Assembly (NCBI GenBank): GCA_030628225.1
Contig: DAOVRJ010000085.1
Location: 1-9,283 of the forward strand
Source of the DNA: Candidatus Zixiibacteriota bacterium
GTDB lineage: Bacteria > SM23-81
Direction: 5' to 3'
DNA length: 9,283 bases
The position numbers and the translations under genes are program-made. Shown in pieces: positions 2,360-5,505 of the stretch. Below the pieces are notes generated by a model. The model was not told where the DNA came from. It did no database searches and was given only the letters and a program-made list of their open reading frames with translations. Numbering within the stretch: the stretch's first letter is position 1; each line of letters opens with the position of its first letter.

Positions 2360-4606
2360 TCAGGAATGGGGCACAAGCTGCAGAGCGACCATGGTGCTGT
2401 CGTCCTGCTGCTGTACCATGGTTCCGGCGAAGGCATTCACCTGCTCAAAGAGCTCATCCAGAAGCTTCTGGGGCGTTAAACTGCGCCTGTTCAGGAGAAA
2501 CCGGATCAGCCGCTGTTCGCCGAACTCCTCCTCGGCCTCGTTCTGTGCCTCGGTGATGCCGTCGGTGTAGAAGAACAGGCTGTCTCCCGGCCCCGTGGGC
2601 ACGGTTTGCTCCTCGTAGGGAGCGTCGTCCATAAAGCCCAGGATGAGTCCGCCTGTGGTCAGCTTCTGGATCTGCCCGTCTGCGCGGAGCAAAATAGGGG
2701 AATTGTGTCCCGCGTTGCTGTATGTGAAATCTCCGCTATTTAGATCCAGCTCCCCGTAAAAGAAGGTCACGAACTTATCTATGTCGGTGAACCGGGCGAT
2801 GTGGGCATTGACCCGGGACACAGTTTCCTTTACCGAAAGGTGGTTTTGGACCTGAGCGTTGAAAGTGGCCTGCAGCACAGCCATCAGCAATGCGGCGGGC
2901 ATTCCCTTGCCGCAGACGTCCCCGATGGCGATTCCCAGTACATCGTCCTTGACGGTAACAAAGTCGTGGTAGTCGCCGCCAACTTGGCGGCTGGGTTTGC
3001 TCAGGGCCGAGACCAGGAAACCGGCGCCGGTGGGGCAGACCTTGGGAAGAAGGGATTCCTGGATCTCCCGTGCCCGGGCCAGCTCCTCCTCAATACGCCG
3101 CTTTTCCACGGCCTCCTGGTATAATTGGGAGTTCACCAGGGCTATGGCTAGCTGGTTGGCCAGCACCGAGAGCATGGCTATGTCCTCGAAATTATAGCGT
3201 CTGGCTCCCATCTTGTTGCCCAGACAGAGAAGGCCCAGAAGCTCTTGGCGCTGCGCGATGGGGATCAGCAGGTGGGCTTCCAGTTGATCCAGTTTTTCCC
3301 GGTCCTCGCTGTCCAGAAGTTTTTTGATCTCAGCCAGGGCGACAGGTCCCCGGGCATTGGCCATCAACTTTATGGCCGAGCCGTTTCTGTCGAGCCAAAC
3401 CTCTCCCGGGGCGTTCTGCGCAGAAGCGCAGGTGGAGAAGTGGCTCCCCTTGCTTTCGGGCAGCAGCAGCGCCGCTCTGTCGGTGAGCGAGGCGGCTCGC
3501 AGAGTTGTGGTTATCTTCTCCTGAAGCTGTCTGACCTCGAAGATGGAGATGATGTCCCGGGTCAGGCGCTGGAGGATGTTTCGATAATCCGAGCGGTCTC
3601 GTCGAAAAATGCCTTCCGAGAGCTCCTCGATCCGGGAAAGCAGCGGCTGAAAAAAGATCACGGCGATGACCACAAAAGCGATGTCCAAATAGGGGATCTG
3701 CATCCCCAAAGTCCTGGCCACCAGGCGGTCCATCTGCCGGATGACGATGAGGTATGTTCCAAGCAGCACGCCGGTGGTTGCCGAATAGACGATGCTCTGG
3801 CGGACGATGGCGCGCAGGCCCAGAAACTGGTGGCGCACCATTGCCCAGGCGATGGAGCCTGCCCCAGTCAACAGGGCGATGATCACCAGGGTGGAGCGGA
3901 GCTGGATGGGCATGCGCAGGGATGTGAGGATGGGCAGTAAAATGGCCACGGTGTAAAGCCCCACGCTGAAGCGCACCCCCCAGAGAACCAGGCGCGCCTG
4001 CCTTTTCTGGAGAGGATCCCGCAGCGCTCGATAGCCCCGGCTCATGAGCAGGATGGCGGTGATGACATACAAGAGGTTGATGGAGGAGAAAAACTTCGTG
4101 TGAGCGTGATAAATTCCGGCTATGAACAGAGTAACGGTTTTTAGAAGCAGGGTGATCGCGTCCGCAAAAGGGCCCAGGTTGTCGCCAAGACGACGTGGAT
4201 CCAGTGAAGAGACGATTTTAGCGGGATTGGAAAAGAACAAGACGACCAGCATGTGGAAAAGGTGGGGCAAATAGATCCAGATCCATATCCGGGGAAAACG
4301 GCGGATCAGCTTGTGTTCCCGGGGGAAGATCAGGGAGAAAAGAACAAGCTGGGGAAAGAAGAACTCCCAGAGATAGAAAAAGTTGTAGTAGAAACCGGTT
4401 TGCAGCACATGGCTGGTTGGGTTCAGGTAATAAACAAGGGTGCCGAAGGCGCCCAGGATCGGCCCCAGTCCCCCAAAGAACATCATGGTGCTGGTCACCC
4501 GGTTAATCCGCTCTCTCGGGTTTTCCCGGAGAATGACCAGTCCCAAAAGGAAAAGGGCTACGCCTCCGGCCAAATAGATGGCCGCTATGAGAAGGTTTCC
4601 TCTCAT
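2360..4606 (-). CDS. Membrane-anchored GAF-SpoIIE (PP2C-type) serine/threonine phosphatase, RsbU-like
   Basis: 748 residues. Residues 1-322 hold about eight to ten hydrophobic helices (for example 4-25, 37-58, 72-94, 107-126, 148-168, 206-230, 237-258, 270-291, 308-322), a sensor-like membrane region resembling histidine-kinase 7TM inputs. About 345-495 is a GAF domain, then a coiled-coil-like helix (495-520, ending EIQESLLP). The SpoIIE phosphatase occupies about 525-745. Metal-binding acidic motifs are intact: GGDYHDF (Asp545), GDVCGKG (Asp563), SNAGHN at 630-635, YTDGITEA (Asp682) and QDDST (Asp735/Asp736). Such enzymes dephosphorylate a STAS-domain antagonist and so release a regulator held by an RsbW-type kinase. 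The kinase gene ends 31 bp upstream, which fits that role. The Shine-Dalgarno match is weak (AGG eight bases before ATG). What the membrane and GAF parts sense is unknown. Confidence 0.93.
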   Translation of the reverse strand: MRGNLLIAAIYLAGGVALFLLGLVILRENPRERINRVTSTMMFFGGLGPILGAFGTLVYYLNPTSHVLQTGFYYNFFYLWEFFFPQLVLFSLIFPREHKLIRRFPRIWIWIYLPHLFHMLVVLFFSNPAKIVSSLDPRRLGDNLGPFADAITLLLKTVTLFIAGIYHAHTKFFSSINLLYVITAILLMSRGYRALRDPLQKRQARLVLWGVRFSVGLYTVAILLPILTSLRMPIQLRSTLVIIALLTGAGSIAWAMVRHQFLGLRAIVRQSIVYSATTGVLLGTYLIVIRQMDRLVARTLGMQIPYLDIAFVVIAVIFFQPLLSRIEELSEGIFRRDRSDYRNILQRLTRDIISIFEVRQLQEKITTTLRAASLTDRAALLLPESKGSHFSTCASAQNAPGEVWLDRNGSAIKLMANARGPVALAEIKKLLDSEDREKLDQLEAHLLIPIAQRQELLGLLCLGNKMGARRYNFEDIAMLSVLANQLAIALVNSQLYQEAVEKRRIEEELARAREIQESLLPKVCPTGAGFLVSALSKPSRQVGGDYHDFVTVKDDVLGIAIGDVCGKGMPAALLMAVLQATFNAQVQNHLSVKETVSRVNAHIARFTDIDKFVTFFYGELDLNSGDFTYSNAGHNSPILLRADGQIQKLTTGGLILGFMDDAPYEEQTVPTGPGDSLFFYTDGITEAQNEAEEEFGEQRLIRFLLNRRSLTPQKLLDELFEQVNAFAGTMVQQQDDSTMVALQLVPHS

Positions 4607-4637: not shown

Positions 4638-5087
4638 CTATTTCCCCCGGCTGGATCCGGCATCCGCCAGCCGCTTGATAAATTCTACCTCCGTGCCCCC
4701 TCCCGGGGCCGGGCGGAAGTTAACCTCGTCCATGAGGGAATGCAGGATGAAAATGCCCCTTCCGTTGCATTTCATCAGGTTCTCCGGGTCCAGGGGACAG
4801 CATACATCGGTGCCGAAAAAGCACTTTCCCTCATCGCGAACGCGAATGCGCATCTGCTCTGTTTCCATATCGACGAGGATGTGCACCTGTTTCTTTTTGT
4901 CTTTTTTATTGCCGTGAAGGATCGCGTTATTCACCGCCTCACTCAGGGATATGGCTATATTGCTGGTGGCATCTTTGTCAAAGCCCATTTTTTTGGCCAG
5001 GGCCTCGATAAAAGCGACCGCTTTTTTAAGATGCTTCTGCGAGCTGGGTATGGACAGCTCTTCGTGCTGAAGTTTTCCCGTGGACAT
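4638..5087 (-). CDS. RsbW-like GHKL ATP-binding protein (anti-sigma serine/threonine kinase family)
   Basis: 149 residues, the normal length for a single-domain RsbW/SpoIIAB-type kinase. The N box is SEAVNNAILHGN at 49-60, with Glu50 and Asn54. The G1 box reads RDEGKCF at 84-90, where the second glycine of DxGxG is replaced by Cys89. The G2 box is NGRGIFIL at 108-115, and GGGTEVEF at 129-136 closes the fold. The usual PENL stretch precedes G2. Cytosolic; the family binds a sigma factor or other target and phosphorylates a STAS antagonist. Cysteines 89, 96, 97 and 107 cluster around the ATP lid, which is unusual. The start is well supported: the upstream stop codon TAG forms part of the purine-rich AGGGGGA site just before the ATG, so translation is probably coupled. 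Its natural partner for reversal is the phosphatase just downstream. Confidence 0.87.
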   Translation of the reverse strand: MSTGKLQHEELSIPSSQKHLKKAVAFIEALAKKMGFDKDATSNIAISLSEAVNNAILHGNKKDKKKQVHILVDMETEQMRIRVRDEGKCFFGTDVCCPLDPENLMKCNGRGIFILHSLMDEVNFRPAPGGGTEVEFIKRLADAGSSRGK

Positions 5088-5096
5088 CTTTTCCCC

Positions 5097-5273
5097 CTAC
5101 AGGAGCATCTTCAGGACAACGATGGTCACGTCGTCGCCCAGCTTTGATCTGCCCACGAAATTGAGCACACTGGCGAATATTTCCGCTTTGTCGTTGATGA
5201 CGAACTCATGAACGAAACCGAGAAATCCAAGTCCCAACAGCGGAAGGCCCTCGCTCACCTTTTTTGAGGCCAT
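5097..5273 (-). CDS. 58-residue ORF resembling only the C-terminal end of a PP2C/SpoIIE phosphatase
   Basis: Encodes 58 residues starting MASKKVSEG and ending FVGRSKLGDDVTIVVLKMLL. The pattern GDDVTIVVLK matches the last metal-binding aspartate and final strand of PP2C/SpoIIE phosphatases (compare QDDSTMVALQL in the 748-residue neighbour). The other catalytic motifs are absent, so it cannot be an active phosphatase alone. It has a strong ribosome site (GGAGAAGGGGAA directly before the ATG). It begins 28 bp after the membrane-protein gene, and its stop overlaps the ribosome site of the RsbW-like gene. So it is probably translated. It may be the remnant of a second phosphatase shortened by deletion, or a retained small protein, perhaps an accessory to the kinase or phosphatase. 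The upstream DNA encodes a different protein, so no missing half lies nearby. Confidence 0.55.
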   Translation of the reverse strand: MASKKVSEGLPLLGLGFLGFVHEFVINDKAEIFASVLNFVGRSKLGDDVTIVVLKMLL

Positions 5274-5301
5274 TTCCCCTTCTCCTGTTTGTTAAGTAAT
5301 T

Positions 5302-5505
5302 CTAGCTCTGTTTTTCTCCCTTTCGCAACGCTCCGGAAACCGGCAGAGCAACTCCCAGGATGAAAGCCATCCGGAATGCAGTTTCCCAATCAACCACACC
5401 AGCACCGTGCCGGATCGAGCTCCACAGAAATGTCACCACGACTGTGACCACGAAGGTGACGCCAAAGGTGGTGATGAACCTGACGAAGAGCTCTTTGCGG
5501 CTCAT
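5302..5505 (-). CDS. Small two-helix membrane protein of unknown function
   Basis: 67 residues. Two hydrophobic stretches, about 8-28 (ending VVTFLWSS) and 42-58 (TAFRMAFILGVALPVSG), flank a short loop containing RHGAGVVDWE. The N-terminus (SRKE) and C-terminus (RKGEKQ) are positively charged, suggesting both ends are cytoplasmic. The ATG has GGAG five bases upstream. It is the first gene after the possible promoter at 5604-5633 and lies 28 bp before the phosphatase-tail ORF, so it probably belongs to the same transcript as the kinase and phosphatase. I recall similar short HGxxxVDWE-type proteins as hypotheticals in deltaproteobacteria but know of no function. It is not an RsbW or STAS protein. 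A membrane input or anchor for the switch is conceivable but unsupported. Confidence 0.72.
   Translation of the reverse strand: MSRKELFVRFITTFGVTFVVTVVVTFLWSSIRHGAGVVDWETAFRMAFILGVALPVSGALRKGEKQS

Follow-up and report, generated by a model that had tools for sequence, protein, structure and literature searches.

A 58-codon open reading frame before an RsbW-like gene in a Zixiibacteriota bacterium is very probably the deletion scar of a phosphatase gene

Introduction

Phosphatases with a GAF-GAF-PPM architecture that act on the RsbW/RsbV switch are a known kind, with RsbZ of C. difficile as one example (PMC12143880). The locus described here lies in a stretch of 9,283 nucleotides of a Candidatus Zixiibacteriota genome, here called the window. 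In it, an open reading frame (ORF) of 58 codons, the microORF, stands directly before an RsbW-like gene. It is like the GAF-GAF-SpoIIE (PPM/PP2C) phosphatases of the RsbU/RsbP/RsbZ kind found beside RsbW in that its last ~27 codons share homology with the C-terminal end of such an enzyme, encoded at the same locus of a relative. Unlike a tandem-GAF phosphatase such as RsbZ (PMC12143880), it has neither of the GAF domains, and nothing of SpoIIE except the last strand region.

The microORF also resembles the fusion ORFs that in-frame deletions leave behind, with the 5' end of one gene, the 3' end of the next and the intact pair in a relative. It differs from other such remnants in one detail alone, namely the overlap that persists between its stop and the ribosome site of the following gene. 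Since the sequences to either side of the junction are each homologous to a gene of the relative, and since synteny agrees, we consider the microORF very probably the deletion scar of a phosphatase gene, an ordinary remnant of gene loss.

Genomes compared

The phylum is sampled by four genomes and the genus by one. The closest relative compared, from the same family, is candidate division Zixibacteria bacterium SM23_81 (G001, LJUY01000004.1); G002 and G003 belong to the phylum as well. The genome that carries the window is metagenome-assembled, in 306 contigs, and 92% complete. The names SGNH, NUDIX and RuvX used below were assigned by eye from the translations.

The 58-codon ORF

The microORF occupies positions 5097..5273 on the minus strand, starts with ATG and encodes 58 residues, MASKKVSEGLPLLGLGFLGFVHEFVINDKAEIFASVLNFVGRSKLGDDVTIVVLKMLL. 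A sequence resembling a ribosome-binding site, AGGAGAAGGGG, lies at 5276..5286 (minus strand), so that the start reads AGGAGAAGGGGAA-ATG, a good ribosome site. At the other end (5088..5099, minus strand) the TAG stop runs into GGGGAAAAG, which is the ribosome site of rsbW, and 9 nt separate the stop from the ATG of the RsbW-like ORF. The product ends in GDDVTIVVLKMLL, which includes GDDVTIVVLK. The sequence thus confirms the preliminary description with regard to the 58-residue length, the strong ribosome site, the GDDVTIVVLK end and the stop placed at the RsbW-like ribosome site.

The same description took the product for the tail of a PP2C phosphatase. This holds for residues 31-57 (alignment score 70 against shuffles, see below); the first ~31 residues come from another gene. 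The 58 residues matched no family among the Pfam and NCBIfam profiles at E values up to 1, and there was no significant profile match to SpoIIE/PP2C (PF07228). In a complete SpoIIE/PP2C domain the metal-binding motifs span about 190 residues, whereas the microORF holds only the final ~27, terminal GDD included. With almost all of the phosphatase domain missing, its product cannot be a PP2C enzyme.

The same locus in relatives

In the closest relative, the corresponding locus (L053, contig C82) contains, in operon-strand order, a phosphoribosyltransferase gene, a 53-residue ORF, a 598-residue GAF-GAF-SpoIIE phosphatase gene, an RsbW-like gene (65% identical to that of the window), an inserted SGNH-like ORF, a membrane-GAF-SpoIIE phosphatase gene (69%), and the NUDIX and RuvX genes. 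The window has the same series minus the phosphoribosyltransferase, the GAF-GAF-SpoIIE phosphatase and the SGNH-like ORF. The 53-residue ORF (L053 7282-7443, minus strand) has a TTG start, overlaps the end of the phosphoribosyltransferase gene and precedes the phosphatase. It belongs to no family, and in 290 genomes its only homologue is the start of the window's microORF; a match in G268 is due to chance, as the matching frame overlaps a long unrelated ORF.

In G002 and G003 the genes for a STAS protein, a GAF-GAF-SpoIIE phosphatase, an RsbW-like kinase and a membrane (7TM)-GAF-SpoIIE phosphatase follow each other consecutively. A full GAF-GAF-SpoIIE phosphatase therefore precedes rsbW in these two genomes as well as in SM23_81. 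The preliminary description had named a recent deletion product as one of two possible readings, and a full-length phosphatase at this place in relatives as support for a remnant and as grounds for rejecting a functional small protein. Such a gene is present exactly here in all three, which supports the deletion reading. In two KSB1-type loci (L062 and L063) RsbW is followed by the membrane phosphatase and no GAF-GAF gene stands directly before RsbW, so its presence at that place is shown for this phylum and not for all.

Two parents of the fusion ORF

Comparison with the closest relative reveals a different parent on each side of a junction, and both parents are intact there at the same place. 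Codons 1-31 of the microORF (5181..5273, minus strand) have their homologue in the 5' portion of the 53-residue ORF, and residues 3-31 align with its start without gaps (SKKVSEGLPLLGLGFLGFVHEFVINDKAE / SRKMSDTVSLLGIDIDDLTHEFIISEKQE). The BLOSUM62 score is 64, against 24±3.7 for shuffled sequences (maximum 44; 0 of 2000 reach 64). Over the 14-kb locus of the relative, the frame of the 53-residue ORF is the best of six for this part, with all other frames at 34 or below.

As for the last 27 codons and the stop (5097..5180, minus strand), these correspond by homology to the C-terminal end of the GAF-GAF-SpoIIE phosphatase. Residues 31-57 align with it without gaps (EIFASVLNFVGRSKLGDDVTIVVLKML / EIHDQLREFVGPSGLGDDITMLILKVL) at a score of 70, against a shuffled mean of 17.3 (sd 3.5, maximum 35). 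Ten SpoIIE tails were compared with this part, and the same-locus phosphatase scores best, the others reaching 35-61. An origin by duplication of the tail of the downstream 7TM phosphatase was rejected, as the score to that tail is 35 compared with 70 for the same-locus enzyme. A match of the microORF on another contig of the same relative (C34) is also a chance one, in a frame that overlaps a long unrelated ORF.

DNA identity gives the same picture. On the N-terminal side of the junction it is 64.5% to the 53-residue ORF and 33% to the phosphatase, while on the C-terminal side it is 30% and 61%, respectively. The switch between parents falls within codons 30-38 (5160..5186, minus strand), and the exact point of the junction lies somewhere in this zone. 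With the junction placed after codon 31, the implied deletion is 1,876 bp in the coordinates of the relative. There, the starts of the 53-residue ORF and the phosphatase are 256 bp apart and in differing frames; the deletion cancels this difference, so that by chance no stop interrupts the scar between the start of the one and the stop of the other.

The proposed course of events is as follows. In the ancestor of this lineage, rsbW was preceded on its own strand by a small ORF and then a tandem-GAF SpoIIE/PP2C phosphatase gene. About 1.9 kb was then deleted, which took away the end of the small ORF, the spacer and the phosphatase gene except its last ~27 codons. What remained is a frame running from the start of the small ORF to the stop of the phosphatase.

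Some points count against a scar, namely the perfectly kept GDDVTIVVLK strand signature, the codon-position divergence of the tail and the presence of the fusion in a single genome. Divergence at the three codon positions is 0.37/0.26/0.56 for the tail of the microORF, 0.40/0.30/0.40 for the intact orthologous 7TM tail and 0.25/0.18/0.47 for RsbW. The tail thus diverges like that of an intact phosphatase and somewhat more than RsbW, with decay not yet visible. This suggests that either the deletion is young relative to the split from SM23_81 or the tail is still constrained, two options that 27 codons from one genome cannot separate.

Start and stop signals

In the relative, the TAA stop of the phosphatase, GGGGGAGGA and the rsbW ATG stand in this order, with 9 nt from stop to start. 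The spacing is identical in the window (TAG, GGGGAAAAG, ATG). At the other end of the locus, GAGGAGCGCCG precedes the TTG of the 53-residue ORF. The start region of the microORF is thus inherited from the 53-residue ORF, and its stop and the spacing to rsbW from the phosphatase.

The preliminary description had argued that a remnant would not be expected to keep such coupling. This argument fails, since the same 9-nt arrangement is already found at the intact phosphatase/rsbW junction of SM23_81. With the overlap of stop and ribosome site already in place there, an in-frame deletion keeps the coupling automatically. The coupling features, being inherited, are therefore no evidence of selection.

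Possible roles and other explanations

A refinement of the deletion scar, not an alternative to the deletion, is that the deletion is real and selection has kept the ORF as a leader whose translation sets the expression of rsbW through translational coupling. We regard this as a reasonable option, at somewhat less than an even chance. All 58 codons of the scar are open, and the 9-nt spacing and the overlap of stop and ribosome site equal those of the intact gene pair; however, these features came with the parents, and the fusion ORF is carried by a single genome among those compared. A literature search for gene remnants that are retained for their coupling yielded no useful result. Whether passive or selected, a role of the scar as translated leader of rsbW is possible, and at most its translation may deliver ribosomes to the stop/Shine-Dalgarno region ahead of rsbW.

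It is far less probable that the fusion peptide has been kept or co-opted to bind RsbW or its antagonist as a small protein, a decoy of the surface of the deleted phosphatase, as the preliminary description had proposed. The good ribosome site, the lack of internal stops and the intact GDD strand would suit it, and an origin by fusion is compatible with a later function. Nevertheless, no standalone homologue of similar length was found for the microORF in 98 genomes, relatives included, or for its 53-residue parent in 290. The order membrane protein, microORF, RsbW-like gene, put forward earlier as something to check, is not conserved either: homologues of the membrane protein sit on contigs other than those of the RsbW-like genes, where the latter were found. 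The single-sequence AlphaFold2 model of the 58 residues is all-helical, without a PP2C strand, and at its low confidence (pLDDT 66.5, pTM 0.35) it is uninformative on an alpha/beta PP2C fold. The last helix and strand of the PP2C core, in isolation, are not expected to fold. A protein function is unlikely, and the microORF probably has no present role as a protein.

In the case of an assembly artefact, the organism would still have the phosphatase and only the contig would have lost it. The genome is indeed fragmented and incomplete, but the junction joins two non-repetitive sites with at most a few shared bases (such as GAA), in frame with both parents, and no other contig has a close match to the lost 5' portion of the phosphatase gene (best 38%). 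We consider such an artefact highly improbable.

A deletion scar with these signals is a clean example of a microORF whose good signals can be pure inheritance, the start coming from one gene, the coupling and the stop from its neighbour. The case calls for caution: a functional small protein should not be deduced from a strong ribosome site and coupled translation. Furthermore, it records how, in a lineage with few sampled genomes, an RsbW switch lost one of its two phosphatase inputs.

Remaining phosphatases and neighbouring genes

A search across the contigs of the genome found no second copy of the GAF-GAF-SpoIIE phosphatase. Apart from the operon's one membrane phosphatase, contig C285 carries the only SpoIIE gene, a single-GAF paralogue (38% identity), and a move of the phosphatase elsewhere in the genome was rejected on this ground. 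SM23_81, by comparison, has five SpoIIE genes. A plasmid search of the region returned nothing.

The RsbW-like anti-sigma/serine kinase (4638..5087, minus strand, 149 residues) has a HATPase_c_2 domain (E 7e-23) and similarity to RsbW/SpoIIAB, with scores under the RsbW and SpoIIAB equivalog cut-offs. Next in the same operon is the intact membrane (about 7 TM)-GAF-SpoIIE phosphatase (2360..4606, minus strand, 748 residues, SpoIIE E 1.6e-51). Gene order suggests that RsbW probably works with this remaining membrane-anchored enzyme. An RsbW-like gene directly followed by a membrane-GAF-SpoIIE gene is common to the window and the two KSB1-type loci, with about 40% identity between the phosphatases. 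The N-terminal half of the 748-residue protein weakly matches the PrsK histidine kinase model TIGR02916. Where SM23_81 has the SGNH-hydrolase-like ORF between rsbW and the membrane phosphatase (L053 3951-4907, minus strand, 318 residues), the window has 31 nt.

Finally, the small membrane protein upstream of the microORF (5302..5505, minus strand, 67 residues) belongs to an unrelated small family. Its homologues in G002, G012, G048 and G033 are 31-45% identical, mostly of similar length and found in varied contexts. It shows a weak resemblance to DUF1761.
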